Source: Phycicoccus sp. Root101
Lineage (GTDB): Bacteria; Actinomycetota; Actinomycetes; Actinomycetales; Dermatophilaceae
DNA: 64,000 bases
Assembly (NCBI RefSeq): GCF_001426245.1
Contig: NZ_LMCM01000007.1
Span: forward strand, 62,001 to 126,000
Reading direction: 5' to 3'
The translations under genes and the position numbers were made by a program. Shown here piece by piece: positions 1-64,000 of the stretch (its first letter is position 1; every line of letters begins with the position of its first letter). The notes under the pieces are model-generated. The model was given only the letters and a program-made list of their open reading frames with translations. It ran no database searches and had not been told where the DNA came from.

Positions 1-758
1 CCGTCCTCGTCGATGGCGATGAGCTCACCGGGCTCGACCTCGCGGATGAGCGAGGCGCCGACGATGTCGAGGGCGGCGGTCTCGGAGGCGACGACCCAGC
101 CACGGTCCAGGCGGCCCAGGACCAGGGGACGGATCCCCTGCGGGTCGCGCGCGGCATACAGGGTGTGCTCGTCCATGAACACGAAGCAGAAGGCGCCCTG
201 CAGCTTGGGCAGGATGTCCATCGCCGCCGCCTCGAGCGAACGGTCGGGGTCGTCAGCGAGCAGGGCGGTGACCAGGGCGGTGTCGGTCGTGTTGCCCCGG
301 ACCAGCTCGCCGCCGCCGTGGGCGAACCCCTCCTCGGCGCGGGAAGCGACCAGCTCGCGCAGCTCGGCGGAGTTGATGAGGTTGCCGTTGTGGGCCAGGG
401 CCACCGTCGACTCGGCGTGGCCGCCGAGGGTGGGCTGGGCGTTCTCCCACGTGGAGCCGCCGGTCGTGGAGTAGCGGCAGTGGCCGACGGCGAGGTGTCC
501 GCGCAGGGAGGCGAGCGACCGCTCGTCGAACACCTGGGACACCAGGCCCATGTCCTTGTAGACGAGGATGCTGCGCCCGTCGGAGGTCGCGATGCCGGCC
601 GACTCCTGCCCGCGGTGCTGCAGGGCGTAGAGGCCGTAGTAGGTGAGCTTGGCGACCTCCTCCCCGGGAGCCCAGACGCCAAAGACCCCGCAGGCGTCCT
701 GCGGGCCCTTCTCGTTCGGAAGGAGGTCGTGCGTCAGCTGTCCGTCGCCACGTGCCAC
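1..758 (-). CDS. purF: Amidophosphoribosyltransferase (partial, 3' end outside window)
   Basis: First committed enzyme of purine synthesis: converts PRPP and glutamine to phosphoribosylamine in the cytosol. About 252 N-terminal residues are visible, covering the class II glutamine amidotransferase domain. The motif DACGVFGVW places the nucleophile at Cys23 after a short propeptide, and YALQHRGQESAG, GHCRYSTTGGS and LAHNGNL are all typical of PurF. The likely start is the GTG at 758-756. No strong Shine-Dalgarno is visible. The frame stays open to base 1, so the phosphoribosyltransferase domain lies outside the window. The other de novo purine genes (purL, purQ, purS, purC, purD) lie upstream on the same strand. 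Confidence 0.95.
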   Translation of the reverse strand, partial: MARGDGQLTHDLLPNEKGPQDACGVFGVWAPGEEVAKLTYYGLYALQHRGQESAGIATSDGRSILVYKDMGLVSQVFDERSLASLRGHLAVGHCRYSTTGGSTWENAQPTLGGHAESTVALAHNGNLINSAELRELVASRAEEGFAHGGGELVRGNTTDTALVTALLADDPDRSLEAAAMDILPKLQGAFCFVFMDEHTLYAARDPQGIRPLVLGRLDRGWVVASETAALDIVGASLIREVEPGELIAIDED

Positions 759-788
759 GTGGCTCAGTGTCCCACAGGGGGAACGGCG

Positions 789-1016
789 TCAGTCGCGGCG
801 TTCCAGAAGCACGGCCACCACCGCGGCCAGGAGCCCGAACACGCAGGCGCCGAGGACCCCCAGGAACAGCACCGACGACGACTCGCTGTAGGAACGGCCG
901 AACTCCGTGGTGTTGCTGCCGCCGTAGTAGGCGAACACCGAACCGACGATGAAACCGAGGATCGCCCCGGTGGAGATGAAGGCGACGAAGTTCGGGTAGC
1001 GACGGGTGGGAGGCAC
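789..1016 (-). CDS. Small two-TM membrane protein
   Basis: A 75-residue protein with two predicted membrane helices, about residues 9-31 and 48-70, joined by a short polar loop (GGSNTTEFGRSYSESSS). I recognise no catalytic motif. It sits 30 bp upstream of purF on the same strand; small membrane proteins are common at this position in actinobacteria, so it may be cotranscribed with purF. The start is the GTG at 1016-1014. A -10-like TAGCGT (minus strand, 1028-1023) ends six bases before it, suggesting leaderless translation. Function unknown. Confidence 0.75.
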   Translation of the reverse strand: MPPTRRYPNFVAFISTGAILGFIVGSVFAYYGGSNTTEFGRSYSESSSVLFLGVLGACVFGLLAAVVAVLLERRD

Positions 1017-1077
1017 GGGTCCACGCTACCTCCCCCTCCCAGAGGCCTTGCCGGGCCCTGATCGACGCCACCCCTAC

Positions 1078-1106
1078 CCATCCGTTGCCCCCGGCGGGTA
1101 CGAATG
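1078..1106 (+). promoter_or_regulatory. SigK-type promoter of the molybdopterin oxidoreductase gene
   Basis: CCATCC at 1078-1083 and CGAATG at 1101-1106 are separated by 17 bases. This resembles the promoter reported for the mycobacterial SigK regulon (CCATCC, 17-18 bases, CGAAT). The same CGAATG occurs before the fasciclin gene. Predicted transcription start is near 1112-1113, on the ATG at 1113. Match by eye only. Confidence 0.65.
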
Positions 1107-1112
1107 GAGGTC

Positions 1113-2681
1113 ATGGAACCCACTTCGAAGAGCCAACGCCTCAGGTATGCCGTCAGCGGCCTGCTCGCGGCCCTCACCGGTATGGCCGTGGGTCACCTCG
1201 TCGCAGCCCTGGTCAACCCGGCGGCCTCGCCGGTGCTGTCCGTGGGTTCGACGGTCATCGACGCCACCCCGACCCCGGTCAAGGAATGGGCGATCCAGCA
1301 TTTCGGCACCAACGACAAGCCCGTCCTGCTCTCCAGCGTCGCTCTGGTCACGGCCCTCGCGGCCCTCGGCATCGGCCTGCTGGCCCGCAAGCGGCCGAGT
1401 GCAGCCGGCGTCCTCGTCGTGCTGCTCGCCGGCCTGGCCGGACTGGCCGCGATGCTGCGACCCACCGCCTCGCCGGTCGACATCCTGCCCGCGTTCGCCG
1501 CGGCGGTCGTCGGCGTCGGGGTCCTGTTCGGGCTCCTGCGCCTGCTGAGCACCGGCGCCACCGAGGCGGCCGCTCACGAGTCCCCGCTCGACCACTCCGC
1601 GCAGGCCCCGGGGGTCGCCTCGACGACCGGGCGACGCAACTTCCTCATCGGTGCGGCCGGCGCCACGGTCGGTGCAGCCGCCGTCGGCACGCTCGGCCAG
1701 AAGCTGGCCGTTCCGCCCACGCTGCCGTCCTCGGTGTCCCTGCCCACCCCGCAGAACACCGCGCCGGCCCTGCCGGCCGGGCTGGAGACCAAGGTCAAGG
1801 GCATCAGCGCCTTCAGCACCCCGATCAAGGACTTCTACCGCGTCGACACGGCCCTGGTCATCCCGCGCATCGACGTGAAGAGCTGGAAGCTCGAGATCGG
1901 CGGGGACGTGGACAAGCCCTACTCGATCACCTTCGACGAGCTGCTCAAGATGCCGATGATCGAGAAGTACATCACCCTCAACTGCGTCAGCAACGAGGTC
2001 GGCGGCCCCTACATCTCCTCGACCCTGTGGCAGGGCGTCCGCATCAAGGACCTCCTCGAGCGCGCCGGGGTGAAGGCGAACGTCGACCAGATCCTGAGCG
2101 AGTCGACCGACGGCATGACGATCTCGACCCCGATCGAGGCTCTCACCGACGACCGCGACGCCATCATCGCCGTGGCGATGAACGGCGAGCCGCTCCCGCC
2201 CAAGCACGGGTTCCCCGCGCGGATGGTCACGCCGGGCCTCTACGGGTTCGTCGGCGCCACCAAGTGGGTCACCAAGCTCACCGCGACGACGTACGCCAAG
2301 GACAAGGCCTACTGGACCGAGCGCGACTGGCTCATCGACGGGAAGGTCAAGACGCAGGCTCGCATCGACACGCCCCGAGGCCTCGCGACCTACAAGCCCG
2401 GGAAGATGGCTGTCGGCGGGGTCGCGTGGGCCCAGGGCCGCGGCATCGAGAAGGTCGAGGTCCGCGTGGACGACGGCCCGTGGCAGAAGGCCACCCTCGG
2501 ACCGGACGGCGGCACGGACTACTGGCGCCAGTGGTTCTGGGAGTGGGATGCAAAGAGCGGTCGCCACGACCTGACGGTGCGCGCCACCGACGGCACCGGC
2601 ACGGTCCAGACCCAGGAGAAGGCCGACCCGTTCCCCGGTGGAGCGTCCGGCTACCACTCGATCGTCGTGCTCGTCTCCTGA
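1113..2681 (+). CDS. Membrane-anchored molybdopterin-dependent oxidoreductase (sulfite oxidase family)
   Basis: A 522-residue redox protein. Four hydrophobic segments lie within residues 10-145, followed near residue 175 by a Tat-like segment (GRRNFLIGAAGATVG), then an oxidoreductase molybdopterin-binding domain. LNCVSNEVGGPY carries the expected molybdenum-ligand Cys near residue 291. The C-terminal 100 residues (VEVRVDDGPW, WRQWFWEWDA) form the Ig-like Mo-co dimerisation region. The catalytic domain is probably extracytoplasmic. An in-frame ATG at 1104 is possible, but it lies inside the predicted -10 element, so I prefer ATG 1113 as a leaderless start. It heads a cluster with a fasciclin lipoprotein, sigK and rskA. 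Substrate unknown. Confidence 0.85.
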   Translation: MEPTSKSQRLRYAVSGLLAALTGMAVGHLVAALVNPAASPVLSVGSTVIDATPTPVKEWAIQHFGTNDKPVLLSSVALVTALAALGIGLLARKRPSAAGVLVVLLAGLAGLAAMLRPTASPVDILPAFAAAVVGVGVLFGLLRLLSTGATEAAAHESPLDHSAQAPGVASTTGRRNFLIGAAGATVGAAAVGTLGQKLAVPPTLPSSVSLPTPQNTAPALPAGLETKVKGISAFSTPIKDFYRVDTALVIPRIDVKSWKLEIGGDVDKPYSITFDELLKMPMIEKYITLNCVSNEVGGPYISSTLWQGVRIKDLLERAGVKANVDQILSESTDGMTISTPIEALTDDRDAIIAVAMNGEPLPPKHGFPARMVTPGLYGFVGATKWVTKLTATTYAKDKAYWTERDWLIDGKVKTQARIDTPRGLATYKPGKMAVGGVAWAQGRGIEKVEVRVDDGPWQKATLGPDGGTDYWRQWFWEWDAKSGRHDLTVRATDGTGTVQTQEKADPFPGGASGYHSIVVLVS

Positions 2682-2726
2682 CGAATCATCAACAGCCGCA
2701 ACACTTTGAAGTGATGCGGCACCGAG

Positions 2727-2763: not shown

Positions 2764-2829
2764 GCGTTGTCCCGCAACGGTTTCGAGGGACCGCCGGGGC
2801 AAAAACTCGAAAAAACTTTCACCAGAGTC

Positions 2830-5866: not shown

Positions 5867-5920
5867 GCAGGGAGGGTATGCCGCGCGACAGGACGCGGCC
5901 CGTCCCACCCGTGCCCACGG

Positions 5921-7096: not shown

Positions 7097-8143
7097 ATGA
7101 AGGCCACGATCCTCCACGCGCCCGGCGACATCCGTCTCGACGAGGTCCCCGACCCCGTCCTCGTCGCCCCCACCGACGCCCTCGTTCGCGTCACCGCCTC
7201 GTGCGTCTGCGGCAGCGACCTGTGGCCCTACCGCGGCATCAACGACGTGACCGAGCCGACCCGCATCGGGCACGAGTTCGTCGGCATCGTCGAGGAGGTC
7301 GGCGCCGAGGTGCGCAGCCTGCGCCCGGGCGACTTCGTCATCGCACCGTTCATGTACTCCGACAACACCTGTCCGCACTGCCGGGTCGGCATCCAGTCGC
7401 GGTGCTCGCACGGCGGGTTCTGGGGCGGCAACGACCGGGACGGTGTGCTGGCCGACGGCGGCCAGGGCGAGTACGTCCGCGTCCCGCTGGCCGACGGCAC
7501 GCTCGTGTCCACCCGTGAGGTCCCGGACGACTCGCTCGTCCCGTCGCTGCTCACCCTGTCCGACGTCATGGGCACGGGCTGGCACGCGGGTGTCGCCGCC
7601 AAGGTCTCCGAGGGCGACACCGTCGTCGTCGTGGGCGACGGGGCGGTCGGTCTCAGCGGGGTCCTCGCTGCCGCCCGCATGGGGGCCGAGCGCATCATCG
7701 CGCTCTCACGGCACGCCTCGCGCCAGGCGGTCGCCCGCGACTTCGGGGCCACCGACGTCGTCGAGGTGCGCGGCGACGAGGCCGTCGCCGCGGTCAAGGA
7801 GCTCACCGACGGCGTCGGTGCGGACGCCGTGCTCGAGTGCGTCGGCACCAACGAGTCCATGCACACGGCCATCGCCGTCGCGCGGCCCGGCGCCACCGTC
7901 GGGTACGTCGGTGTGCCGCACGGCATCGAGTACCCGGTGCGCGACATGTTCGTGCGCAACGTCGGGATCGCGGGAGGCATCGCCCCCGCGCGCCAGTACC
8001 TGCCGCAGCTGCGCGACGACGTCCTCGCCGGCACGATCAACCCGGGCGCCGTGTTCGACCTCGAGCTGCCGCTCAGCGAGGTCGCCGAGGCGTATGCCGC
8101 GATGGACGAGCGCCGCGCGATCAAGTCGCTGCTGCGCCCCTGA
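7097..8143 (+). CDS. Zinc-dependent alcohol dehydrogenase family protein
   Basis: A 348-residue medium-chain dehydrogenase. The catalytic zinc site is visible as Cys38 (SCVCGSDLW) and GHEF (His59-Glu60). The structural zinc loop is abbreviated (TCPHCRVGIQSRC, three Cys instead of the classic four). The nucleotide fold is VVVVGDGAVGLSGV. ATG 7097 has GGGAGG nine bases upstream. The next gene starts two bases after the stop, so the two are probably cotranscribed. Substrate unknown. Confidence 0.85.
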   Translation: MKATILHAPGDIRLDEVPDPVLVAPTDALVRVTASCVCGSDLWPYRGINDVTEPTRIGHEFVGIVEEVGAEVRSLRPGDFVIAPFMYSDNTCPHCRVGIQSRCSHGGFWGGNDRDGVLADGGQGEYVRVPLADGTLVSTREVPDDSLVPSLLTLSDVMGTGWHAGVAAKVSEGDTVVVVGDGAVGLSGVLAAARMGAERIIALSRHASRQAVARDFGATDVVEVRGDEAVAAVKELTDGVGADAVLECVGTNESMHTAIAVARPGATVGYVGVPHGIEYPVRDMFVRNVGIAGGIAPARQYLPQLRDDVLAGTINPGAVFDLELPLSEVAEAYAAMDERRAIKSLLRP

Positions 8144-8145: not shown

Positions 8146-9024
8146 ATGGGCCGCGACCGTGGGTCGAGGCGCACGCCCGACAGCCGCGCCGACACCCGCG
8201 CCGACCCCGCCGACGAGGCCGGCACCTCGCCGGTCGAGTTCGTCGACGACGGCACCGGCGGCACGGTCGTCATGATCGACGGGCACCCGCAGTCCTACGT
8301 CCAGCTCGGCGACCCCCGCCTCCTCGTCTTCGAGTACGTCCAGTTCCTCGCGGCCGTGGTCGACGTGCTGCCGGAGGGACCCGTGGCCGCCACCCATGTG
8401 GGTGGGGCCGGCCTGACCCTCCCCCGCTACGTCGCCCACACCCGACCCGGGTCGCCGCAGATCGTCCTCGAGCCTGCGCAGGACGTGACCAGCGCCGTGC
8501 GCCAGACGCTGCCGCTGCCGCGTGGTCACCGGATCCGGGTGCGCCCGGTCGACGGTCGCAGCGGGCTGCGCCAGCTCGCCGACGGCAGTGCGGAGCTGGT
8601 GGCCGTCGACGCGTATGCCGCCGGCCGCGTCCCTGCCGAGCTCACCTCGACCGAGTGGTTCACCGACGTCGCCCGGGTGCTCGGGGCGGGCGGTCTCCTC
8701 GCGATGAACACCGCCGACGAGCCCAGTCGTCGCCACCTCGCCCGCCTGCACGCCACGATCGCCACCGTCCTGCCGCACACGGCGGCGATCGCGACCTCCG
8801 AGGTCCGCAAGGGTCGACGCTTCGGCAACACCGTCCTCGTCGCGAGCGCCCAGCCCCTGCCCCTGACGGCCCTGGCCCGCAGGGTCGCCATGACGGCCTT
8901 CTCGGCCACCTTGCTGCACGGTCCGTCGCTGGCCAGGACCCTCGGGTCGGCGCAGCCGTTCACCGACGAGGACGCCGAGGCCTCCCCCGAGCCACCCCGC
9001 GTCGAGGGCTGGCGCGTGCGCTGA
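8146..9024 (+). CDS. Spermidine-synthase-like protein
   Basis: A 292-residue protein of the spermidine synthase / SAM-methyltransferase fold. DPRLLVFEYVQFLAAVVDVL, THVGGAGLTLPRY, VLEPAQDVT and ELVAVDAYAAGRVPAELTS follow the order seen in SpeE-like proteins. Many actinobacteria encode such stand-alone proteins annotated fused MFS/spermidine synthase or spermidine synthase-like, and real polyamine synthesis is doubtful for them. It starts two bases after the alcohol dehydrogenase stop. The first 30 residues are Arg/Asp-rich and may be disordered. Confidence 0.72.
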   Translation: MGRDRGSRRTPDSRADTRADPADEAGTSPVEFVDDGTGGTVVMIDGHPQSYVQLGDPRLLVFEYVQFLAAVVDVLPEGPVAATHVGGAGLTLPRYVAHTRPGSPQIVLEPAQDVTSAVRQTLPLPRGHRIRVRPVDGRSGLRQLADGSAELVAVDAYAAGRVPAELTSTEWFTDVARVLGAGGLLAMNTADEPSRRHLARLHATIATVLPHTAAIATSEVRKGRRFGNTVLVASAQPLPLTALARRVAMTAFSATLLHGPSLARTLGSAQPFTDEDAEASPEPPRVEGWRVR

Positions 9025-10195: not shown

Positions 10196-10558
10196 TCAGA
10201 CCAGGGGGAGGTATGCCGTGAGGTCGGCCCGGTGGCCGCTGACCCGCAGGCTGCCCGCCTCCCAGGCCCCGTCCCAGCTCAGGGAGCCGGTGGCCACCTG
10301 CAGCCACGTCTGCGCGTCGGTCTCGACCACGTTGGGCGGGGTGCCTCGCGTGTGGGTCGTGCCGGACACGCACTGGACCGCGCCGAACGGTGGCACGCGC
10401 ACCTCGACGCTGCGACCGGGCGCGACCGTCGCGAGCTCCTCGAGCGCGTAGCGCACGGCGGTGGCCAGGTCCGCGCGGGCGAGGTCCGCACCCTCTGCCT
10501 GCCAGCGTTGCACCGCCGAGCGTCCAGCGGCGACAGGGACTCGGCGGCGCGGCGGCAT
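10196..10558 (-). CDS. Sterol-carrier (SCP2-like) family protein
   Basis: A 120-residue protein. The block VRYALEELATVAPGRSVEVRVPPFGAVQC followed by HTRGTPPNVVETDAQTWLQVATG is highly typical of the small actinobacterial bacterial SCP orthologue, which is usually encoded among purine genes, as here between purF and purL. The SCP2 fold binds lipids or acyl chains; the role of this family is not known. It is separated from the upstream kinase gene by a hairpin region. Confidence 0.8.
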   Translation of the reverse strand: MPPRRRVPVAAGRSAVQRWQAEGADLARADLATAVRYALEELATVAPGRSVEVRVPPFGAVQCVSGTTHTRGTPPNVVETDAQTWLQVATGSLSWDGAWEAGSLRVSGHRADLTAYLPLV

Positions 10559-12888: not shown

Positions 12889-15185
<2,297 letters not shown>

Positions 15186-15189: not shown

Positions 15190-15857
15190 GCTGAAACCAC
15201 CTGTCGCAGAACAGAAGTGAAGAAGGGGAGCCCATCGGTCGAGGGGCCGTAGCCCTCCTCCACGCAGTGCTCGGGGTGGGGCATGAGGCCCACGATGTTG
15301 CCGCGCTCGTTGCTGATGCCCGCGATGCCGCGGTACGAGCCGTTCGGGTTGTCACCGGCATACCGGAAGACCACGCGGCCCTCACCCTCGAGCTCGTCGA
15401 GGGTTCGCTCGTCGGCGACGAACCCGCCCTCGCCGTTCTTGAGGACGATCGTGATCTCCTGCCCGGCCTCGAAGTCGGAGGTCCAGGTGGTCGAGGCGTT
15501 CTCGACGACGAGCCGCTGGTCGACGCAGTTGAACTTGCGGTGGTCGTTGCGGATCAGCGCACCGGGGAGCAGGTGGCTCTCGCAGAGCACCTGGAAGCCG
15601 TTGCAGATGCCGAGCACCGGCAGCCCTCCCTGGGCTGCGGGGATGAGGGCGTCCATGACCGGCGCGAAACGGGCGATGGCACCGCAGCGCAGGTAGTCGC
15701 CGTACGAGAAACCGCCGGGGAGGACCACGGCGTCGACGCCCTTGAGGTCGGCGTCGCCGTGCCAGAGGCTGACGGCCTCGGCGCCGACGGCGCGCACCGC
15801 GCGGGCGGCGTCACGGTCGTCGAGGGAGCCCGGAAACGTGACGACCCCGACCTTCAC
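15186..15857 (-). CDS. purQ: Phosphoribosylformylglycinamidine synthase glutaminase subunit
   Basis: A 223-residue class I glutamine amidotransferase that supplies ammonia to PurL. The nucleophile lies in [15 protein letters not shown] (Cys of GICNG), the oxyanion region in [12 protein letters not shown], and the catalytic His/Glu in [12 protein letters not shown]. The start overlaps the purS stop and the stop overlaps the purL start, each by 4 bases. Confidence 0.97.
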
Positions 15858-16126: not shown

Positions 16127-16307
16127 TCGGGTGTCTCCTGGGTTCAGCACGGGACTAGCGCGGGGGATGGAAGCGACCGCAGTCTATCCGGGCCACGGAG
16201 CAGGTATGCCGCGTGGTCACCTCCCGGACGTCCCCGCACGGCCGGGCGAGTGGTTGACACGTCGTGGCGCCCGGAGGAGCGTCCGTGGGGAGAGCCCGGG
16301 AGGCGCC

Positions 16308-18236: not shown

Positions 18237-19133
18237 TCAGGAGAAGGTGCGGCCGGTCAGGCGCTCGTAGGCCTCGACGTACTTCGCCCGCGTCTGCGCC
18301 ACGACGTCCTCGGGCAGGTCGGGCGGAGCCTCGCCCGACGCCTTGTCCCAGCCGCTGGCGGACGAGGTCAACCAGTCGCGGACGTACTGCTTGTCGTACG
18401 ACGGCTGCGGGTGGCCCGGCTCCCAGAGCTCGGCCGGCCAGAACCGGGACGAGTCCGGCGTCAGCACCTCGTCCGCGAGGACGACCTCGTCACCGTCGAG
18501 CCCGAACTCGACCTTGGTGTCGGCGATGAGGATGCCGCGCTCGGCGGCGATCTCGTTGCCGCGGGCGAGGATCGCGGTCGTGAGGTCCCGCACCCGCGAC
18601 GCGAGGGGGGCGCCGATCTCGGCCTCCACGGCGGCATACGGCATCGGCTGGTCGTGCTCCCCCATCGGCGCCTTGGTGGACGGGGTGAAGACGGGTTCGG
18701 GCAGGCGCGAGCCGTCGACCAGGCCCTCGGGCAGCGCCACCCCGGAGACGTGGCCGTCGGCGCGGTACTCGGTGAGTCCGCCACCGGTCAGGTAGGCGCG
18801 GGCGACGCACTCGACGGGGAGCATCGCGAGCCGCTTGACCAGCACCGCCCGCCCGGCAACGGCATCGGGCACGTCGGCCGACACCACGTGGTTGGGCACG
18901 AGGTCCTGCAGCCGCTCGAACCACCAGAGCGACAGCTGCGTCAGGACGGCACCCTTGTCGGGGATCGGGGTGTCGAGGACGAAGTCGTAGGCGGACATGC
19001 GGTCGCTGGCGACGAGGAGCAGCTGGTCGTTCCGCGGCGTCCCCGACTCGTCGAGCGGGGCGTAGAGGTCGCGGACCTTGCCCGAGTAGACGTGGGCGTA
19101 GCCGGGCACCGTGAGCGGCTGGGAGGACGTCAT
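18237..19133 (-). CDS. purC: Phosphoribosylaminoimidazole-succinocarboxamide synthase
   Basis: A 298-residue SAICAR synthetase: joins aspartate to CAIR with ATP in purine synthesis. Signatures are HVYSGKVRDLYAP, LVASDRMSAYDFVLDTPIPDKG, LPVECVARAYLTGG and LIADTKVEFGLDGDEVVLADE. ATG 19133 is chosen because GGAGG lies upstream and homologues begin there; an upstream 40-residue extension is rejected. The PLP decarboxylase follows 27 bases downstream. Confidence 0.96.
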   Translation of the reverse strand: MTSSQPLTVPGYAHVYSGKVRDLYAPLDESGTPRNDQLLLVASDRMSAYDFVLDTPIPDKGAVLTQLSLWWFERLQDLVPNHVVSADVPDAVAGRAVLVKRLAMLPVECVARAYLTGGGLTEYRADGHVSGVALPEGLVDGSRLPEPVFTPSTKAPMGEHDQPMPYAAVEAEIGAPLASRVRDLTTAILARGNEIAAERGILIADTKVEFGLDGDEVVLADEVLTPDSSRFWPAELWEPGHPQPSYDKQYVRDWLTSSASGWDKASGEAPPDLPEDVVAQTRAKYVEAYERLTGRTFS

Positions 19134-19307: not shown

Positions 19308-20708
19308 ATGTCCACCGACACGGCGCAGAGCCGACCCACCGACCTGCCCCCGAGCCTGTTCACCCGAGCGCACCTCCCCTTCGCCATCGGGGCGGTGGCG
19401 CTCGTGACGCTCGGGGCGTTCGAGAACCGCGCGACGACGACGGTGCTGCCCACCGTCGCCCGCGACCTCGACGGGCTGTGGCTGTTCGGTGCGGCCAGCG
19501 CCGCACCGCTCGTGTCGTTCGTCCTCGCCACCGTTGTCGCCGGCGCCTGGGCCGACCACCGCGGGCCCGTCCGCCCCCTGCTGGCCGGGATGGCGGTCTT
19601 CGTCGCCTCCCAGGTCCTCATGGCCGTCGCCCCCGGTATGGCGCTGTTCACCGTGGGGCGGTTCGGCTCCGGCATCAGTGAGGCGTTCATGGACGTGTCG
19701 CTCACGGTCCTGCTCGCGCGGGCACTGCCAGAGGCCTTGCGGGCCAAGGTCTTCGCCGCGTTCGCAGCGGCCTGGGTGCTTCCCTCCCTGCTCGGGCCGC
19801 CGGTGGCCGGGCTCCTGGCGCAGACCTGGTCGTGGCGATCCGTCTTCGCCGTCGGCATCGCCCTCATGGTGCCGGCCGCCCTCCTGCTCCGACCGTCGAT
19901 GCGCGCCTCCACGGCGGCCACCGGTCCTGCCACGCCGTGGACGGGACAGGAGCACCGAGCCGTGCGGGCAGCGGCCCTCGCCGCGGTCGGGCTCGGCGCC
20001 CTGACCGCTGGGGGGTCCCTCTTCGGTGGCAGCAGCACCGCCCGAGTCCTCGGCCTCATCCTGGTGGCCACCGGACTCGCCTGCACCGTCCCGGCGGTGC
20101 GCGCCGTGCTGCCGGCCGGCACGCTGCGGCTCGTCCACGGCATACCGGCCCTCGTGGCGTTGCGTGGGCTCGTCGCCGCGGCGTTCGGGACCGCGGGGAG
20201 CCTGCTGCCCCTCATGCTCACGACCATCCACCACCTCGGGCCGGCCGCCGCGGGCGTGAGCCTCACGGTGACGGGGCTGTGCTGGGCGGCGGGTTCGCAG
20301 CTGCACGGGCTCGACGCGGTGCAGCGACGGGTGGGGGCCGTGCGGCGGCTGCAGGTCGGGTTCGCCCTCATCGCCGTCGGGATCGCCGGACCCGCCCTGA
20401 CCAGCCTCGGGCTGCTCCCGGTCGCACCCGGACTCGTGCTGTGGGGGGTCGCCGGGCTCGGCATGGGGATCGTGTCGCCGACGCTGTCGACCCAGCTGCT
20501 CCTTCTCGCACCCGTGTCCGACCAGGGCCGGATCACCGCTGCGTCGAGCCTGACCGCGTCGGTGGCCCAGGCCGTGGCGCTGGCCGGCGCCGGCGCGCTG
20601 ATCGCCTGGCAGGCCCCGGCACTGCCCGGGTGGCTCTTCGCCGCCGTGATGGTGGGCAGTGCAGCGCTCGGGGCCCTGGGGTGGGCCGCCGCCCGCCGAG
20701 CCGGGTAG
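19308..20708 (+). CDS. MFS transporter (drug/metabolite efflux type)
   Basis: A 466-residue membrane protein with about 12-14 hydrophobic segments starting at residue 21 (LPFAIGAVALVTLGAF). The MFS motif-A region is AGAWADHRGPVRPLLAG. ENRATTTVLPTVARDLDG resembles the DHA2/EmrB-like group. ATG 19308 is preferred because the predicted MerR-type promoter puts the transcription start there (leaderless); ATG 19299 lies inside the -10. Substrate unknown. Convergent with purD. Confidence 0.85.
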   Translation: MSTDTAQSRPTDLPPSLFTRAHLPFAIGAVALVTLGAFENRATTTVLPTVARDLDGLWLFGAASAAPLVSFVLATVVAGAWADHRGPVRPLLAGMAVFVASQVLMAVAPGMALFTVGRFGSGISEAFMDVSLTVLLARALPEALRAKVFAAFAAAWVLPSLLGPPVAGLLAQTWSWRSVFAVGIALMVPAALLLRPSMRASTAATGPATPWTGQEHRAVRAAALAAVGLGALTAGGSLFGGSSTARVLGLILVATGLACTVPAVRAVLPAGTLRLVHGIPALVALRGLVAAAFGTAGSLLPLMLTTIHHLGPAAAGVSLTVTGLCWAAGSQLHGLDAVQRRVGAVRRLQVGFALIAVGIAGPALTSLGLLPVAPGLVLWGVAGLGMGIVSPTLSTQLLLLAPVSDQGRITAASSLTASVAQAVALAGAGALIAWQAPALPGWLFAAVMVGSAALGALGWAAARRAG

Positions 20709-25757: not shown

Positions 25758-27095
<1,338 letters not shown>

Positions 27096-43353: not shown

Positions 43354-43380
43354 TCTGCATCGGTCAACTACCCTTCCCGT

Positions 43381-44609: not shown

Positions 44610-45829
44610 CGCGGAACCTCCATCCGCAGCCGGGTACCCGCACCCGGGGTGCTCTGCACCTCGAACCGGCCACCGACCTCGTCGGCCCGGGCCGTCGCAC
44701 CGTCCAGCCCGTAGCCGCGGTCCGGGGTGTCGGGGGCGAACCCGACCCCGTCGTCGGCGACCTCGAGGGACACGGGGGCGTCGGCGGCATACGTGAGGCG
44801 CACCTCGAAGGTGCGGGCCCGCGCGTGGCGGCGGACGTTGGCGAGACCCTCCTGGGCCGTGCGCAGCAGGACCACCTCGGAGTTGGCCGGCAGGACGGTC
44901 GGCTCGCCCTGGACCACGAGGTTCCCCGTCATGCCGGACTCGGCCGCGACGGCGTCCACGAGGCGCCCGAGCGCCTCGGACAGCGTGCGTGACTGGAGGT
45001 GGCCCGGGGTCATCTCGGCGACGATGAGACGCGCCTCGGAGAGGTTGTCGGCCGCCGTCTGCTCGATCAGTCGCACCCGCTCCCGCACCACGTCGAGGTC
45101 GCCGCGGTCCAGCGCCGCCTCCGTGGCGCGGGCCAGGGTGACGACCGACGTGAACCCCTGGGCGAGGGTGTCGTGGATCTCGCGGGAGATGCGTTCCCGT
45201 TCTCCTGCAACGCCTTGCGCACGTTCGGCAGCCGCGAGCTGGGCCTGGGTGCGACGCAGCTCGTCGATGGTGAACGCACGCGAGTCGGCCTCCCCGATGA
45301 TCTTGTGGATGAACAGGCCCATGACGAGGGACAACGAGAGCGTGATGGCGGTGCTGATCGCGATGCCGACCAGGTCGTCCCCGGTCCGAGGCCCCTGCCA
45401 GAGCCGGACCCCGCCGATCGCCAGGACGGCCACGACCACGACGGCGGCAGCCTGGTTGCGACGCAGCATCGCCCAGGACTGTGGGAACAGCCCGAAGGTG
45501 AGGATCCACGCCGTACCCGACCCGTCCACGGCCATGAGCGCGATGAGGGCGACCCAGGAGACCGTCACGTAGAGGATCCCCGCGGGCGGCTGCTGCTCGC
45601 CGATGCCGCGCCGACCCCACACGAGGTAGGCCACAGCGATCACACCGACGCCCAGGAGCGACCACCCGAGGTGGTCGGCCTCGGCGGCCACGAGGACGCC
45701 CGCCGTCGTCGCCAGCAGGACGGCGAAGAACACGTGCCACCAGACCAGCTGGCGCCGCCACATCTCGTCGAGCTCGCCGGACGACGTCCCCGGCAGGGGA
45801 CGGCAGTCGACAGGCTGGTCGGTGCTCAT
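44606..45829 (-). CDS. Sensor histidine kinase (HisKA_3, NarX/DesK-like)
   Basis: A 407-residue membrane kinase. Five or six transmembrane helices occupy residues 30-180 without a large extracellular loop. The HisKA_3 H-box is ERISREIHDTLAQGF (about residue 215) and HATPase_c carries LLRTAQEGLANVRRHARA, VADDGVGFAP and GYGLDGATARADEVGG. Intramembrane-sensing kinases of this shape are often paired with ABC exporters, and here the exporter genes are immediately upstream (seven-base gap). Confidence 0.92.
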   Translation of the reverse strand: MSTDQPVDCRPLPGTSSGELDEMWRRQLVWWHVFFAVLLATTAGVLVAAEADHLGWSLLGVGVIAVAYLVWGRRGIGEQQPPAGILYVTVSWVALIALMAVDGSGTAWILTFGLFPQSWAMLRRNQAAAVVVVAVLAIGGVRLWQGPRTGDDLVGIAISTAITLSLSLVMGLFIHKIIGEADSRAFTIDELRRTQAQLAAAERAQGVAGERERISREIHDTLAQGFTSVVTLARATEAALDRGDLDVVRERVRLIEQTAADNLSEARLIVAEMTPGHLQSRTLSEALGRLVDAVAAESGMTGNLVVQGEPTVLPANSEVVLLRTAQEGLANVRRHARARTFEVRLTYAADAPVSLEVADDGVGFAPDTPDRGYGLDGATARADEVGGRFEVQSTPGAGTRLRMEVPR

Positions 45830-47706: not shown

Positions 47707-48402
47707 TCAGGACTGGGTGGGGGGCTGCGCGGGCGGAGGGGTCGTCGGCGGGGCGCTCTCCGGGGCGGCCACCGGCGGGGCCGCAGGGACGCCGGCCTCG
47801 GTCCCGGCGGCATACCCGCTCGGCGGGGGGATCGTCGCGTCGCGCTGGCCGAAGTCGACCTTCACCGGGTCGCGCTGCTCGCCCTCGGCCTCGAAGTACT
47901 CCGCGCGCTTCACCTGGGCGAGGCCGGCGATGATGTTGGAGGGGATGGTCTCGACCTTGGTGTTGAGCTCGCGGACGTTGGCGTTGTAGTAGCGCCGGGC
48001 GGAGGCGATGCGGTCCTCGGTCGAGGTCAGCTCCTGCTGGAGGGCGAGGAAGTTCTGGTTGGCCTTGAGGTCGGGGTAGGCCTCGGCCACGGCGATGAGG
48101 CGGCCGAGCGCCTGGCTCAGCAGCCCCTCGCTCTGCGCCTGCTGCGCCGGTGACTGGCCGCCCGCCATCGCGGCGGACCGGGCCTTCATGACGTCCTCGA
48201 GGGTGCCGCGCTCGTGGGCCGCGTAACCCTTGACCGTCTCGACGAGGTTGCCGATGAGGTCGTGGCGGCGCGTCAGCTCGACGTCGATCTGGCGCCAGGC
48301 CTCCTGCACGAGGTTGCGCAGCTTGATCAGGCCGTTGTAGATGCTGACGCCCCACAGGACCAGCAGGACGACGACGACGGCGAAGACGATCGCTTTGATC
48401 AT
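47707..48402 (-). CDS. LemA family protein
   Basis: A 231-residue membrane-anchored protein with one N-terminal helix (IVFAVVVVLLVLWGVSIYNG). The LemA helical domain follows: LRNLVQEAWRQIDVELTRRH, DLIGNLVETVKGYAAHE, LGRLIAVAEAYPDLKANQNF, RRYYNANVRELNTKVETIPS. The C-terminal 45 residues are a Pro/Ala-rich tail, possibly disordered. Function of the family is unclear. ATG 48402 has GGGGAG upstream. Confidence 0.92.
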   Translation of the reverse strand: MIKAIVFAVVVVLLVLWGVSIYNGLIKLRNLVQEAWRQIDVELTRRHDLIGNLVETVKGYAAHERGTLEDVMKARSAAMAGGQSPAQQAQSEGLLSQALGRLIAVAEAYPDLKANQNFLALQQELTSTEDRIASARRYYNANVRELNTKVETIPSNIIAGLAQVKRAEYFEAEGEQRDPVKVDFGQRDATIPPPSGYAAGTEAGVPAAPPVAAPESAPPTTPPPAQPPTQS

Positions 48403-50634: not shown

Positions 50635-51507
50635 ATGCCCACCCCCTCGATCCTGACCGTTGCCGCGCCCGACGGGGTCCGCCTGCGCGTCCAGGTGTGT
50701 GCCGCCGCGCCTACTCACCTCGACGCCGCACCACCGGTTGACCTCCCGACCGTCGTGCTCGCCCACGGCTGGACCCTCACCCACGCCTCCTGGCTGCCGG
50801 TCGTCGAGCGCCTGACCGCCCGGGGACTGCGCGTGGTGACCTGGGACCAGCGCGGGCACGGCCGGTCCGGCGCCCTGACCGGACCGACGTCGGTGCGGGT
50901 CCTCGGTGACGACCTCGCCGCGGTGCTCGCGGTCGTGGCTCCCGACGGCCCCCTCGTCCTCGGGGGCCACTCCATGGGCGGCATGACCGTGATGGCGTAC
51001 GCCGGGCTGCACCCGGCTGCGTTCACCACGCGGGTGCGGGGCACCGTGCTGGTGTCGACGATGGCGGAGACGTTCGACCGCCCGGTGTCGATCCGGCAGC
51101 GGCGGGCCATGGGGCTGATCGCGCGGCTGCCCCGGATCCGGGCCGGACGGTTCGTGACGCTCGACGGCCAGCGACGGCTGCTGTTCGGGCCGGCGGCGGA
51201 GGACGAGCACGTCGCGCTCACCCGCGACCAGGTCGCCGCCACCACCCTGCCGACGATGGGCCGGTTCTACCGGGCCCTGCAGGAGCACGACGAGGCGCAC
51301 GCGCTGGCGCACTTCGACGGCATACCGACCGTGGTGCTGGTCGGCGAGCGCGACCGGCTGACTCCACCGCGTCAGTCCGAGCGCATCGCCGAGCTGGTGC
51401 CGCACGCCGAGCTGCACGTGCTGCCCGGGCTCGGCCACATGCTCGCCTACGAGGCGATCGACGAGGTCGTCGACGCGTTCACGCGCGTCCTGCCCCACCC
51501 ATCCTGA
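50635..51507 (+). CDS. Alpha/beta hydrolase
   Basis: A 290-residue hydrolase. HGWTLTHASW holds the oxyanion His-Gly, the nucleophile elbow is LGGHSMGGMTV (Ser), the acid is VLVGERDRLTPP and the catalytic His is PGLGHMLAYE. There is no signal peptide, so cytosolic. Substrate unknown. It starts one base after xth and is surely cotranscribed. Confidence 0.87.
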   Translation: MPTPSILTVAAPDGVRLRVQVCAAAPTHLDAAPPVDLPTVVLAHGWTLTHASWLPVVERLTARGLRVVTWDQRGHGRSGALTGPTSVRVLGDDLAAVLAVVAPDGPLVLGGHSMGGMTVMAYAGLHPAAFTTRVRGTVLVSTMAETFDRPVSIRQRRAMGLIARLPRIRAGRFVTLDGQRRLLFGPAAEDEHVALTRDQVAATTLPTMGRFYRALQEHDEAHALAHFDGIPTVVLVGERDRLTPPRQSERIAELVPHAELHVLPGLGHMLAYEAIDEVVDAFTRVLPHPS

Positions 51508-52087: not shown

Positions 52088-53739
52088 AGGGGTGGGATGC
52101 CGCCCAGGGGCTGGTGGTTCCGTCGCAGACCCAGGCCGAGGGAGGCCAACGCCCCCAGCACCGCCGCGACGGCAGCACCGGTGAAGACGGTCTGCACCTG
52201 GACGACGCCGGCGGCGACCAGGGCCTTGGTGTCCGTCTGATCGGGCAGGGCGGCCACGGTGTCGTAGTACCGGTGGAGCCCGATCGCCGTGAGCAGCGCG
52301 AGCCCGACGACCATGCCGACCATCCGCGAGACGACGACCAGGGCCGAGGCGACCCCGTGGGCGTCGTCCGGGGCCGCAGCGAGGGCGGCGTTGTTCACCG
52401 GCGCGAGGGCCAGTCCGATGCCGAGGCCGACGAGGGCCAGGACGACGGTGGCGGAGAACGCGTCGAGCGACCCGTCGCCCCACCGGCTCATGACGAGCAG
52501 CCCCACGGCCGACAGCGCCAGTCCCAGCCCGCTGACGACACCGTCACCGAGTCGACGCAGCGACCAGCCACCGAGCAGGGCACCGACGGGCACGGCGACG
52601 AGGAACCGCACGAGCACCAGCGCCGCCTCGGTCTGCGAGTCCGTGAACGTGAGCCGCGCCAGCACCGGGACGTCGACGACGACGGACACCAGCGACGCCC
52701 CCACGAACGCACTGACCAGCAGCGAGAACCGGGCCCGACCGCGGACGACCCCGCGGGCGATGAGGGGTTCTGCAGCGCGGCGGTGCCGCCACAGGTAGAG
52801 CCCGAAGGCCAGCGCCCCCAGGGGGAGCAGCGCGAACCCCAGCGGGCCGACGACCTCACGCTCGGGGTCGCTCGCGGCGAACGTCAGCACCACGCTGCCC
52901 AGCGCGATGCCCAGGAGCAGCGCGCCGGGGACGTCCGCGCGGCCGACGACGGCCCACCAGCCTCGCGCGCTGACCGCCAGCCAGGCGAGGACGAGGACCA
53001 GCGCGACGACCCCGATCGGGGTGGCCAGCCGGGACGTCGAGCCACCGAACGGCACGAACGGCACCCCCAGCGACACGTCGGTCACCAGCCGCGCGGGCGC
53101 GGCCAGCGCGACTCCTGTCACCACGAGCGCGAGCAACCCCAGGACGAGCGGTATGGCGCGTGGCCGGGCCGGCCTCTCGCCACCAGCGACGACGACGGCA
53201 AGCGCCAGGAGCACCCCGGCGATCACGTTGAGCCAGAAGATCATCCGCCAGTCCGAGACGGCGAGGACGACCGCGCCGAGCACCGGACCCAGGACGCTCC
53301 CCAGCTCCTGCACGGCACCGACGACGCCCAGCGGCATACCCCGCTTGTCGGCCGGCCAGAGGTCGGCCACGAGGGCCAGGGTGGCAGGCACGAGGCCTCC
53401 ACCGCCGATGCCCTGGAGGACCCGGCCGGACACGAGCACCGGGAGCTCGACGGCAAGGGCCGTCACGGCCGAACCCACGACGAAGATCGCTAAGCAGGCC
53501 AACAGGATCCGTTGCCTCGAAGCCAGGTCGGCAAGGCGGCCGATGAGGGGCAGCACCGCGATGTAGCCGAGGAGGAAGCCCGAGATGATCGGGGTCGCCT
53601 TCTGCAGCGCGTCGATGCCCAGGCCGACGCCGGTCATCATGTCCGTCAGGGCCAGCACGACGACATAGGTGTCGGCCGCGGCGAGCGCCACGGCCACCGA
53701 GGCGGTGGCCAGCAGCGCCCTAGGGGCGGGTGATCGCAA
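52084..53739 (-). CDS. P55-like MFS transporter (lipid/drug export, 14 TM type)
   Basis: A 551-residue MFS protein. The first helix carries AADTYVVVLALTDMMTGVG, closely resembling the DTYVVV region of mycobacterial P55 (Rv1410c). It is followed by GFLLGYIAVLPLIGRLADLA (motif A) and LVSGRVLQGIGGGGLVPATL. P55 works with LprG in moving triacylglycerides/lipoglycans and affects drug tolerance; the same gene pair is present here. The most likely start is TTG 53739, inside the last 20 bases of lprG, with no ATG nearby. Confidence 0.87.
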   Translation of the reverse strand: MRSPAPRALLATASVAVALAAADTYVVVLALTDMMTGVGLGIDALQKATPIISGFLLGYIAVLPLIGRLADLASRQRILLACLAIFVVGSAVTALAVELPVLVSGRVLQGIGGGGLVPATLALVADLWPADKRGMPLGVVGAVQELGSVLGPVLGAVVLAVSDWRMIFWLNVIAGVLLALAVVVAGGERPARPRAIPLVLGLLALVVTGVALAAPARLVTDVSLGVPFVPFGGSTSRLATPIGVVALVLVLAWLAVSARGWWAVVGRADVPGALLLGIALGSVVLTFAASDPEREVVGPLGFALLPLGALAFGLYLWRHRRAAEPLIARGVVRGRARFSLLVSAFVGASLVSVVVDVPVLARLTFTDSQTEAALVLVRFLVAVPVGALLGGWSLRRLGDGVVSGLGLALSAVGLLVMSRWGDGSLDAFSATVVLALVGLGIGLALAPVNNAALAAAPDDAHGVASALVVVSRMVGMVVGLALLTAIGLHRYYDTVAALPDQTDTKALVAAGVVQVQTVFTGAAVAAVLGALASLGLGLRRNHQPLGGIPPL

Positions 53740-55472: not shown

Positions 55473-55511
55473 CAGGGGTATGGCGCGTGGTCACCACGCG
55501 CCATACCCCTG
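55473..55511. terminator. Perfect 39-base palindrome after the NlpC/P60 gene
   Basis: CAGGGGTATGGCGCGTGGT (55473-55491), a single C, then the exact complement (55493-55511). It lies between convergent genes and can terminate both. Each arm contains one copy of the genome-wide GTATGSCG motif, so the palindrome displays the motif in both orientations. Confidence 0.75.
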
Positions 55512-59001: not shown

Positions 59002-59086
59002 AGGCTCGAGTATGCCGCGTGCCCCCACCGCCGGGATGCGCCGCCGCCACGACGCGCCCAGCACGTTTGCAACGCGGTCCGTCCGC

Positions 59087-59560: not shown

Positions 59561-60583
59561 TCACCGTCCCGCGTTCTCGAAGAGCTCGGCGCGCGGGTCG
59601 TGCCCCTCGTCCTGCGACCGCAGGGTCTCCACCGCCTCACGGGCCTCGTCGGAGAGCCGTTGCGGCACCACGACGACGACGCGGGCCATCAGGTCACCGG
59701 GCGTGCCCTTGACCTGGACCCCGCGGCCCTTGACCCGCAGCACCCGACCGCTCGGGGTGCCCGGCGCGATGCGGACCTTGACCGGGTCGCCGGTGAGGGT
59801 CGGCACCGAGACGGTCGCACCCAGGGCGGCCTCGGCGAACGTCACCGGCAGGTCCAGCGTGAGGTTGTCGCCGTCCCTGCTGAAGACCGGGTGCTTCTCC
59901 ACCGAGATGGTCAGGATGAGGTCGCCGTTGTCGGCCCCGCGGTCGCCGGGCTGGCCCTTGCCGCGCAGCCGGATCTTCTGGCCGTCCTTGACGCCGGCCG
60001 GGATCCGCGTGGTGATCTGGCCCCCGCCGGTGACGCCCAGGGTGACGGTGGAACCCGCGACGGCGTCACGGAAGGACAGGCTGGTGCGGGCCGTCAGGTC
60101 GCCGCCCTTGCGCGGCCCGGTCGGTGCCCGGAAACCGGCACCGCCGCCATACGTCTGGCCGGCAGCGCCACCGCCCCCGAACATGCCGAAGAGGTCCTCG
60201 AGGTTGGGCTGGCCCCCGCCACCGCCGGTGGAGTAGCGGACGCGCTGGCCGCCCCCACCACCGCCGAACATCGACGAGAACACGTCGTCGAACCCGCCGC
60301 CACCGGCAGCCCCACCGGGGCCACCCGCGGTGAAGCGGGCCCCGCCGCGGGCCATCTGGCGCACGGCGTCGTACTCCCGGCGCTTCTCGGGGTCGGACAG
60401 CACCGAGTTGGCCTCGCCGATGTCCTTGAACCGCTGCTCCGCGGCCGCGTCCCCGGGGTTCTGGTCGGGGTGGTGCTTGCGGGCGAGCTTGCGGTAGGCC
60501 TTCTTGATCGCCGCGTCGTCGGCATCCTGGGGGACGCCGAGGATGGCGTAGAAGTCCTTCTCGAACCAGTCCTGGCTGGCCAT
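59561..60583 (-). CDS. dnaJ: DnaJ chaperone without zinc-finger domain
   Basis: A 340-residue Hsp40. The J domain is at 7-75 with HPD (KLARKHHPDQNPG), followed by a long Gly-rich linker (about 88-165) with FDDVFSSMFGGG and LEDLFGMFGGG, then the client-binding C-terminal domains (GQKIRLRGKGQPG, VTFAEAALGATVSVPTL). The CxxCxGxG zinc-finger repeats of classic DnaJ are absent, so it is CbpA-like in architecture even though it sits in the dnaK operon. Confidence 0.93.
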   Translation of the reverse strand: MASQDWFEKDFYAILGVPQDADDAAIKKAYRKLARKHHPDQNPGDAAAEQRFKDIGEANSVLSDPEKRREYDAVRQMARGGARFTAGGPGGAAGGGGFDDVFSSMFGGGGGGQRVRYSTGGGGGQPNLEDLFGMFGGGGAAGQTYGGGAGFRAPTGPRKGGDLTARTSLSFRDAVAGSTVTLGVTGGGQITTRIPAGVKDGQKIRLRGKGQPGDRGADNGDLILTISVEKHPVFSRDGDNLTLDLPVTFAEAALGATVSVPTLTGDPVKVRIAPGTPSGRVLRVKGRGVQVKGTPGDLMARVVVVVPQRLSDEAREAVETLRSQDEGHDPRAELFENAGR

Positions 60584-61299: not shown

Positions 61300-63194
<1,895 letters not shown>

Positions 63195-63230
63195 GGGGAT
63201 GCTCCTGTGGTGCTGGGGAATGGGTACCGG

Positions 63231-63251
63231 GTTGAGTTGCCTCCACTCAAG
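63231..63251. promoter_or_regulatory. HAIR operator 1 of the dnaK operon
   Basis: GTTGAGT, 7 bases, ACTCAAG; nearest to the dnaK start (37 bases upstream). Spacing fits the HspR consensus exactly. Confidence 0.87.
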
Positions 63252-63292
63252 TTAGGACGACGTCCCGACGGGTGCAAATCCGAGCACCCAAA

Positions 63293-63313
63293 CTTGAGTT
63301 CATCAGGCTCAAC
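63293..63313. promoter_or_regulatory. HAIR operator 2 of the dnaK operon
   Basis: CTTGAGT, 7 bases, GCTCAAC; its centre is 62 bases from that of operator 1, about six helical turns, so two HspR dimers could bind the same DNA face. Confidence 0.87.
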
Positions 63314-63468
63314 TTCGTGCGTGCAGACTTTGTTCCCGCCCGTATGCCGCAGGGGCCGGCACCGCGTCGGCCACGGGTTCGCGGGGTGGTGGGCTGGCGG
63401 CACACCCCCGGCGGGCCCCGGCTCGACGAAGCGGGGTCGGGGTCGGGGTCCGGCGTCGGGCGGCCGGG

Positions 63469-64000
63469 TCAGCCGGGCTTGTTGTCGTCGGTGCGCTTGC
63501 GGCTGCGCGGGTCGGGGACGCCGGCGGTGTAGACCATCTCGTGCTCGTCGCCGCGGCCCACGACCGGCATGCTGCCGAGCTCCCGCGTGATCACGGGGCC
63601 CTGGTCCTCGAGCGCGACGACGGTGGGTTCACCCGGGTCGACCCTGACCCGCTCGCCGCGCACGACGAACTCGAGCCCGTCGCCCTCCACGAGGGTGAAC
63701 GCGATCTGGTCCGGAAGGATCTCCACCCGCACCCGGTTGCCGCGCACGCGCAGCCGGAACTCCAGCCGCGGCCAGCTCGCCGGCAGGCGCGGGTCGAAGG
63801 TCAGCGTGCCGTTGTGGTCGCGCATGCCGCCGAACCCGTAGACGGTGGCGTTCCAGACACCGCCGCAGGAGGCGATGTGGACGCCGTCGGCGGCGTTGCG
63901 GTGCAGGTCCGCGAGGTCGACGTAGAGCCCGGAGTGGAAGTACCGCAGGGCGAGGTCCTGGTAGCCGACCTCCGCCGCGATGATCGACTGCACGACCGCC
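63469..64000 (-). CDS. GH65 family glycoside phosphorylase/hydrolase (C-terminal part)
   Basis: The last 177 residues of a glycoside hydrolase family 65 protein (trehalose, kojibiose or maltose phosphorylase type). VVQSIIAAEVGYQDLALRYF, HSGLYVDLADLHRNAADGVH and GGVWNATVYGFGGMRDHNG are the end of the (alpha/alpha)6 barrel, and FDPRLPASWPRLEFRLRVRG is the C-terminal beta domain. The frame is open to the window's right edge; the catalytic acid and phosphate site lie outside. A polar tail of about 30 residues follows. Substrate not determinable. Confidence 0.85.
   Translation of the reverse strand, partial: AVVQSIIAAEVGYQDLALRYFHSGLYVDLADLHRNAADGVHIASCGGVWNATVYGFGGMRDHNGTLTFDPRLPASWPRLEFRLRVRGNRVRVEILPDQIAFTLVEGDGLEFVVRGERVRVDPGEPTVVALEDQGPVITRELGSMPVVGRGDEHEMVYTAGVPDPRSRKRTDDNKPG

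Follow-up and report, generated by a model that had tools for sequence, protein, structure and literature searches.

GTATGSCG, an abundant DNA word of Phycicoccus sp. Root101 and its family: a candidate DNA uptake signal with variants in sister genera

Words that mark self-DNA for uptake have so far been described only in two Gram-negative families. Here we describe the word GTATGSCG, which is repeated throughout a 64,000-nucleotide stretch of Phycicoccus sp. Root101 (contig NZ_LMCM01000007.1, positions 62,001 to 126,000; hereafter the window, meaning the whole of this stretch). What had been noticed as a motif of this one stretch is confirmed, and proves to be part of a family-wide DNA code that has variants as well as a counterpart in a second family. 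Neisseriaceae and Pasteurellaceae are given as the only families known with such recognition in the accessible part of PMC12616744, the same two groups are named in the parts available of PMC5031613 and PMC2734928, and no uptake sequence is reported for mycobacteria in the corresponding part of PMC10526031. A literature search with mostly open-access coverage and without bioRxiv preprints returned no actinobacterial uptake signal among the matches listed, and the titles and abstracts of the matches listed for GTATGCCG, the main form of the word, concern other matters.

GTATGSCG is known here from sequence alone, and at this level it can be compared with the DNA uptake sequence (DUS) of Neisseriaceae and the uptake signal sequence (USS) of Pasteurellaceae. 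Excerpts of the relevant papers describe DUS dialects, a CTG core and an association of inverted pairs with terminators (PMC3630211), an atypical DUS distribution in mobile elements (PMC7371117), and, for USS and DUS together, no orientation bias with about 10% inverted repeats (PMC1939737). Like the DUS, which is read by the minor pilin ComP, GTATGSCG is a short non-palindromic word with thousands of copies and dialects among related genera, with inverted pairs at gene ends and with scarcity in some mobile inserts. It is unlike the DUS in phylum, in the word itself, in its high-GC host, and in the presence of Tad/Flp instead of type IV pilus genes; GTATGCCG and the Neisseria DUS ATGCCGTCTGAA share only ATGCCG, which we take as coincidence because the essential CTG core is absent from GTATGCCG. 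The USS of Haemophilus influenzae has a gradual spectrum of near matches, with an excess of one-mismatch forms. GTATGSCG resembles the Pasteurellaceae USS in density, lack of orientation bias, a core with a weaker flank and some inverted pairs, and differs from it in being an unrelated word without a gradual near-match spectrum.

HIP1 (GCGATCGC) of cyanobacteria is a very abundant palindromic octamer found in coding and non-coding DNA. GTATGSCG is likewise a very abundant octamer in both kinds of DNA; unlike HIP1, it is non-palindromic (GTATGCCG on one strand reads CGGCATAC on the other), has variants in sister genera and forms inverted pairs at gene ends. For Micrococcus luteus, an actinobacterium in which transformation requires the Tad clusters, both of which are needed, no sequence preference is stated in the accessible part of PMC4322843.

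Abundance, gene context and inverted pairs

GTATGSCG occurs 37 times in the window (17 plus, 20 minus; 29 GTATGCCG and 8 GTATGGCG), against a mean of 1.43 (sd 1.09, maximum 5) in 100 dinucleotide-preserving shuffles. These sites belong to 39 copies of the 7-mer GTATGSC, 18 on the plus strand and 21 (GSCATAC) on the minus strand, and the next base is G in 37 of the 39. The earlier note that drew attention to the word had given the same numbers, and the positions it listed agree with ours (those on the minus strand being starts of the 7-mer); its claim of over-representation stands, and its expectation of about four copies was too generous. The whole-genome count that it proposed as a check gave 2046 copies (1021 forward, 1025 reverse) in the 4.38 Mb and 12 contigs of this genome (G000; relatives carry G-numbers and contig pieces L-numbers), against 210 for a reversed-pattern control.

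More detailed statistics come from a 464-kb sample comprising 400 kb of contig C1 (C1:1-400000) and the window. In this sample GTATGCCG is seen 180 times, with 5.8, 6.6 and 10.3 copies expected from Markov models of order 1, 2 and 3 respectively; the excess is 27-fold over order 2, and under order 3 the word ranks first among 8-mers seen at least 12 times. The companion form GTATGGCG is seen 53 times, against 6.0 (order 2) and 10.8 (order 3). Under order 4 the expectation for GTATGCCG rises to 46 and the word ranks third, after the overlapping TATGCCGC and TATGGCGC, and orders 5 and 6 give 117 and 173. These last two models absorb the count because sub-words of the motif carry the excess too, so the order-5 to -6 test suggested earlier is undecisive as worded, and the synonymous-codon test is the decisive one. 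On its 3' side the motif has a weak continuation as CG..gG. An Rfam scan of the window gave no match.

Genes were called with a custom codon-usage script and not with a standard gene finder, so that gene edges and small genes are rough. By these calls, 178 of the 233 sites in the sample lie in genes, 50 lie between genes and five are at edges; the density is 0.92 per kb between genes and 0.43 per kb within them, a 2.1-fold intergenic excess that depends on the custom calls. The 178 coding sites compare with 16.6 (sd 3.7, maximum 28) in 200 within-gene synonymous-codon shuffles, and the excess is present in all five frame/strand classes observed, as the earlier note had proposed, and is not that of one codon pair in one frame. 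Within the sampled genes the motif contains 98 of the 166 TAT codons and 25 of the 40 ATA codons.

Retention of sites in orthologues was scored by aligning the sample, without gaps, to 21 related loci. The motif is kept in 58 of 89 cells (one own site in one other species), with the identical word in 49, and control words with the same letters in another order are kept in 2724 of 12765 cells (21%). The cells are non-independent, and only 11 own sites are aligned in at least three other species, being kept in from 0/3 to 6/6. Of the cells in which tyrosine is conserved, 18 of 23 inside the motif and 15 of 62 outside it retain the codon TAT; for conserved isoleucine, ATA is retained by 18 of 24 inside and by all four outside, the latter too few for comparison. 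From the orthologue and codon retention we conclude that individual sites turn over yet are held at the DNA level. A DNA-level constraint of the kind that had been suggested is thus well supported by the shuffles, the genome count, the Markov comparisons, the synonymous shuffles and the orthologues.

Some sites are arranged as inverted pairs. The head-to-head pair in the window (Table 1) has a predicted RNA fold of -45.6 kcal/mol (z -8.6) and sits between the ends of two convergent genes, one encoding an NlpC/P60 protein by Pfam (54624-55457, plus) and the other an open reading frame (ORF) without a Pfam match (55528-55977, minus). The 464-kb sample has five head-to-head pairs, each lying within about 75 bp downstream of one or more stop codons, and two tail-to-tail pairs. 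In the whole genome there are 31 head-to-head pairs with 4-22 nt spacers, against 4.5 expected from the counts. Such pairs are found in 24 of 58 genomes (i.e. our own and its relatives, described below) and are well above chance in genera g1, g16, g18, g22 and g23, including all 11 genomes of the own genus. In 13 of the 15 genomes of the own genus, g16, g18, g22 and g23 there are 25-94 pairs with 1.6-18 expected (e.g. G002 94/17.9, G006 90/7.7, G031 62/8.0, G027 48/8.5 and G025 33/1.6, observed/expected), and G009 and G010 have 15 and 7 with 1.3 and 0.8 expected. G017 has 56 with 25.6 expected, and G015, G022 and G035 have 4-5 each with 1.3-2.0 expected. Among the matches listed, the bases inside the hairpins vary between genera. 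The pairs are terminator-like and may act in transcription termination.

Distribution and variants among genomes

The family concerned is Intrasporangiaceae in the NCBI taxonomy, where it holds Pedococcus and Knoellia, and Dermatophilaceae in GTDB. The ComEC protein of our genome is 80% identical to that of Phycicoccus sp. Soil748, and Pedococcus is also among the nearest named matches. We examined 42 of 80 named loci (L041-L082). Twelve pieces of 14-22 kb from Phycicoccus, Pedococcus, Knoellia, Janibacter sp. HTCC2649 and a Dermatophilaceae metagenome-assembled genome (MAG) have 7-24 copies of GTATGSCG against 0-3 of the reversed pattern; of the others, Leekyejoonella has 6 against 3, Janibacter massiliensis 2 against 0, and the remaining 28 carry 0-1.

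Among 58 genomes (our own and relatives) the word is enriched in all 11 of the genus and in 12 further family members, and in 0 of 22 genomes from other families of the order; this is the comparison with related genera that the earlier note called for. By a manual tally, at least 600 copies are present in 92 of 163 family genomes that are at least 90% complete, covering 26 of 48 genera. Across 394 genomes of the class the motif is found in 5 of 8 family members, and only G350 stands out among the other 386.

The word has also been lost within genera. G515 has 85 copies, and the other 27 of the 28 genomes of its genus have at least 618; G497 has 33, against 3724 in G498. No replacement word clearly above coding background was seen in 20-kb samples of G515 and G497 (L271, L272), G470 and G540, nor any other word in 20-40 kb samples of the motif-free genomes G012, G018, G019, G020, G023 and G024. 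These genomes may lack any such word, or have one that is too weak to show in samples of this size.

Some relatives carry a related word instead. GGATGCCG is strongly raised in G026 (1966/1850 by strand) and reaches 674/662 in G011, about twice the usual level, with about 110-490 per strand in other family members. GTACGCCS is raised in G033 (1192/1243) and G034 (1151/1177); two members of our own genus with less GTATGSCG, G009 and G010, have 515-648 per strand, as against 143-356 for the nine others of that genus. In longer samples both G026 and G034 keep their own word on top, and coding copies of GGATGCCG in the G026 sample number 67 against 16.3 by synonymous shuffle. A tree of the Tad ATPase places the GTATG-type G025 and the GGATG-type G026 as sisters (100/98), and G034 with G029 inside a six-member group with GTATG genera (98/97), the basal order being unresolved.

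GGATGCCG is also the word of a second family of the order (f19), where it exceeds 0.35 copies per kb in 16 of 20 genomes and reaches 1.3; by inspection of the counts, it is below about 0.25 copies per kb in the remaining 374 genomes of the class. In 160 kb of G159, a member of f19, it is the top 8-mer (254 against 25.6 expected; strands 129/125). Coding copies number 241 against 48.5 in 60 synonymous shuffles, and there are six head-to-head and no tail-to-tail pairs, with 2.5 expected. From its size and its many species, f19 may be Microbacteriaceae; a Microbacterium MAG piece of 11.6 kb (L078) has three copies of GGATGCCG against one reversed, which is too few to decide anything.

Two further observations concern other words. 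G350 (family f45; same class, outside the order) has 262 GTATGSCG against 56 for the control, and in its first 20 kb (L249) GTACGTCG occurs 13 times with 0.9 expected and is richer than GTATGSCG; this is possibly an independent word or a related variant. In G030 (L139, L217), TGGTACAC/CTGGTACA-type words occur 12 times in 40 kb with 0.6 expected, and the TGGTACAC-type words are probably a local repeat.

Competence genes and rival explanations

The genome has both comEC and a Tad cluster resembling tad-1 of M. luteus. The chromosomal cluster (G000:C5:465573-470227) encodes a T2SSE-type ATPase, TadB, TadC, a small protein, two TadE-like proteins and one Tad/TadG-like protein; the small protein (66-75 aa, no Pfam match) occupies the Flp position. 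The order tadA-tadB-tadC-small protein-TadE/F-type, with tadB and tadC separate, is that of tad-1 as given in the available part of PMC4322843, a likeness of gene order, and the pilin N-termini resemble, by eye only, the M. luteus ones printed in the part available of PMC6370729. Neither ComEC nor a TadE hidden Markov model was informative as a discriminator, each being present in or matching 57 of the 58 genomes. In the one-contig, motif-rich G005, the ComEC match is in two pieces in different frames (G005:C1:1517076-1517881), which is a frameshift or an assembly error.

The Tad ATPase (at least 64% identity) is present in all 28 family members of the 58-genome set that carry a variant of the motif, counting G029 and G011 as carriers; it is partial in G027, across contigs in G031 and split in G004, G009 and G017. 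It is absent, with only distant paralogues or weak matches, from three of eight motif-free family members (G016, G023 and G024), and the probability of this difference by chance (0/28 vs 3/8), ignoring kinship, is 0.008. A further motif-free genome, G030, is without the small protein and the pilins; its cluster ends after TadC, beside ORFs resembling an insertion sequence.

Mobile DNA offers another comparison. The 11.1-kb insert that splits the ATPase gene of G017 has one site, and its 18.9-kb flanks have 20; the ends of the corresponding insert in G004 have three sites in 25.6 kb, and its flanks have eight in 14.4 kb. On our own contig C7, upstream of the window, the first 20 kb (C7:1-20000) has one site. 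A second Tad cluster there (L153:6866-17409 of G000:C7) has one in 10.5 kb and is 84-96% identical, protein by protein, to a cluster of another genus (G017); it was probably acquired recently.

The explanation that best fits these observations, and the best supported by the anatomy and distribution of the word, is a DNA uptake sequence, which was not among the mechanisms that had been proposed for it. GTATGSCG is probably the core word of a DNA uptake signal that extends through the genome, with GGATGCCG and GTACGCC as its variants in sister genera and the second family. We also favour, with more reserve, the broader view that this would be a third self-DNA uptake code, of independent origin and without precedent outside Proteobacteria, present in at least two actinobacterial families as two or three dialects that switch between sisters, read by a Tad/Flp pilus and implying frequent natural transformation. 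We do not claim membership of the DUS/USS class because its defining trait is raised DNA binding, uptake or transformation, a wet-lab matter.

We infer a mechanism in which the word on free DNA would be bound at the cell surface by a protein of the natural-transformation apparatus, which most likely belongs to a Tad/Flp competence pilus similar to that of M. luteus tad-1. DNA of kin would be preferentially pulled in, handed to ComEC and recombined, and recurrent recombination of tagged fragments would spread and preserve the tag on both strands where codons permit; inverted pairs may secondarily have been co-opted as terminators. If this is correct, a third case, here in monoderm high-GC bacteria, would demonstrate the repeated evolution of such codes, the tag would mark which actinobacteria are naturally transformable, and adding the word to donor DNA would be a simple laboratory aid. 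Sister genera with switched dialects and the losses within genera would then allow a search for the receptor by comparison. We name no receptor because the Tad pilins do not diverge in step with the variants: in 19 clusters (171 pairs, excluding mixed-variant and motif-free genomes) there is no relation between the two.

The lack of this relation weighs against an uptake signal, and so do several other observations. The Tad cluster persists in four motif-free genomes (G012, G018, G019 and G020), two of which, G018 and G019, have more divergent pilins. One-mismatch neighbours show no general excess in the 464-kb sample (0.3- to 3.2-fold, mostly small counts), and the most abundant other neighbour is GGATGCCG with 77 against 46 expected; in our view such an excess is not a defining trait of the DUS. 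Inverted pairs are at chance in G013 (21 against 15.7), G014 (15 against 21.2), G021 (16 against 16.0) and G028 (2 against 3.2), and the intergenic excess is not seen in G159 (1.09 per kb between and 1.62 within genes) or G026 (0.60 and 0.67). Some of the variants are weak: GTACGCC in G034 is about 2-fold above synonymous shuffles (102 against 45), GGATGCCG is absent from the top words of an 80-kb sample of G011, and its congener G540 has no excess of GGATGCCG in 20 kb. GTACGCCS in G029 (544/565) is doubtful as a variant because other families have up to 578 per strand, and nothing stood out in 20 kb of G029. Finally, the insert of G009 is contrary or too sparse, with four sites in 28.6 kb of its ends and none in 11.4 kb of flanks.

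The main alternative explanation is that GTATGSCG is a HIP1-like intracellular motif, i.e. a binding or modification site (for a methyltransferase with repair, for nucleoid organisation or for a replication-linked function) that is kept by selection or biased repair and whose specificity drifts between genera. The abundance, strand balance, variants and DNA-level retention would equally fit a co-evolving intracellular protein, and the spacing of sites, slightly more even than random (coefficient of variation 0.85), fits such a role, as do the Tad clusters of the four motif-free genomes and the pilins that do not track the variants. Against it stand the non-palindromic form of the word, the recruitment of inverted pairs at gene ends and the losses within genera seen in G515 and G497. 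To our knowledge, moreover, a modified site does not normally give a 10- to 30-fold enrichment, and we judge this explanation unlikely, if a serious one.

Genome-wide over-representation would also fit a Chi-like recombination hotspot or a KOPS-type signal of chromosome architecture or segregation, both of which the earlier note had raised. Chi- and KOPS-type signals are strand-polar along the replichore. GC skew along the C1 stretch is weak and changes sign, so that it does not define the replichore; origin and terminus were left unplaced, but a polarity extending across hundreds of kb would still have been visible. The stretch has 98 plus and 98 minus sites, the eight 50-kb bins range between 13/7 and 13/15 (plus/minus), and strand totals are near-equal in the motif-rich genomes counted. 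This balance contradicts a polar signal, and we consider either form of it very improbable.

A by-product of mutation or codon usage, for example through very-short-patch-type repair or a preference for one codon pair, would fit the absorption of the count by order-5 and order-6 models and the depletion of some one-mismatch words (e.g. GTCTGCCG, 14 against 44). Against it, likely source words are at expectation (GTACGCCG 37 against 38, GTGTGCCG 34 against 37), and there is an excess over synonymous shuffles in five frame/strand classes and an intergenic excess in our own genome; the synonymous shuffles contradict a codon-pair artefact. Biased mutation, also proposed earlier, in its pure form poorly explains the gene-end hairpins, the orthologue retention and the switching of variants between sister genera, and there is very little likelihood that it accounts for the word. 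The inverted pairs might point to a terminator element only, or to the remains of a dispersed repeat or transposable element, but we give this next to no credence: flanks of the sites are unrelated beyond a few bases, which contradicts a dispersed repeat, and no more than 62 of the 2046 sites, making up 31 pairs, belong to hairpins, with 178 of 233 sampled sites within genes.

Site coordinates and interrupted Tad ATPase genes

Table 1. Positions of GTATGSCG in the window, from a pattern search (intergenic according to the custom codon-usage gene calls), and of the Tad ATPase genes split by inserts
Feature	Position	Strand
GTATGCCG site	152..159	-
GTATGCCG site	1145..1152	+
GTATGCCG site, intergenic	5876..5883	+
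GTATGCCG site	8092..8099	+
GTATGCCG site	8613..8620	+
GTATGCCG site	10211..10218	+
GTATGCCG site	14355..14362	-
GTATGCCG site	15356..15363	-
GTATGCCG site, intergenic	16204..16211	+
GTATGCCG site	18632..18639	-
GTATGGCG site	19636..19643	+
GTATGCCG site	20138..20145	-
GTATGGCG site	21593..21600	+
GTATGCCG site	26468..26475	-
GTATGCCG site	27054..27061	-
GTATGCCG site	28701..28708	+
GTATGCCG site	28799..28806	-
GTATGGCG site, intergenic	33953..33960	+
GTATGCCG site	36020..36027	-
GTATGCCG site	36240..36247	+
GTATGCCG site	36521..36528	-
GTATGCCG site	38052..38059	-
GTATGGCG site, intergenic	38809..38816	+
GTATGCCG site	39936..39943	-
GTATGCCG site	43189..43196	-
GTATGCCG site	43379..43386	+
GTATGCCG site	44785..44792	-
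GTATGCCG site	47808..47815	-
GTATGCCG site	51318..51325	-
GTATGGCG site	53151..53158	+
GTATGCCG site	53332..53339	-
Head-to-head inverted pair of GTATGGCG, hairpin	55478..55506	55478-55485 + and 55499-55506 -
GTATGCCG site, intergenic	59010..59017	+
GTATGGCG site	60145..60152	-
GTATGCCG site	61433..61440	-
GTATGCCG site, intergenic	63342..63349	+
Split Tad ATPase, G017	L218:9224-9766 and L219:856-1506	
Split Tad ATPase, G004	L220:7830-8531 and L221:14098-14628	
Split Tad ATPase, G009	L222:4907-5596 and L223 near 14170	

The Tad ATPase gene is split by inserts in three motif-bearing genomes, G017 (about 11 kb), G004 (about 71 kb) and G009 (about 79 kb); for the latter two, the ends of the inserts were read. 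The breaks fall at the Walker A motif (residues 201-209) or within about 30 residues beyond it, and a large serine recombinase, differing between the genomes, lies near each break, at 28 bp in G004, 128 bp in G017 and 3.1 kb in G009. The Tad ATPase gene, a likely competence gene, thus looks like a hotspot of integration, and disruption of competence genes by prophages or transposable elements is described in the accessible parts of PMC7029219 and PMC12955456.

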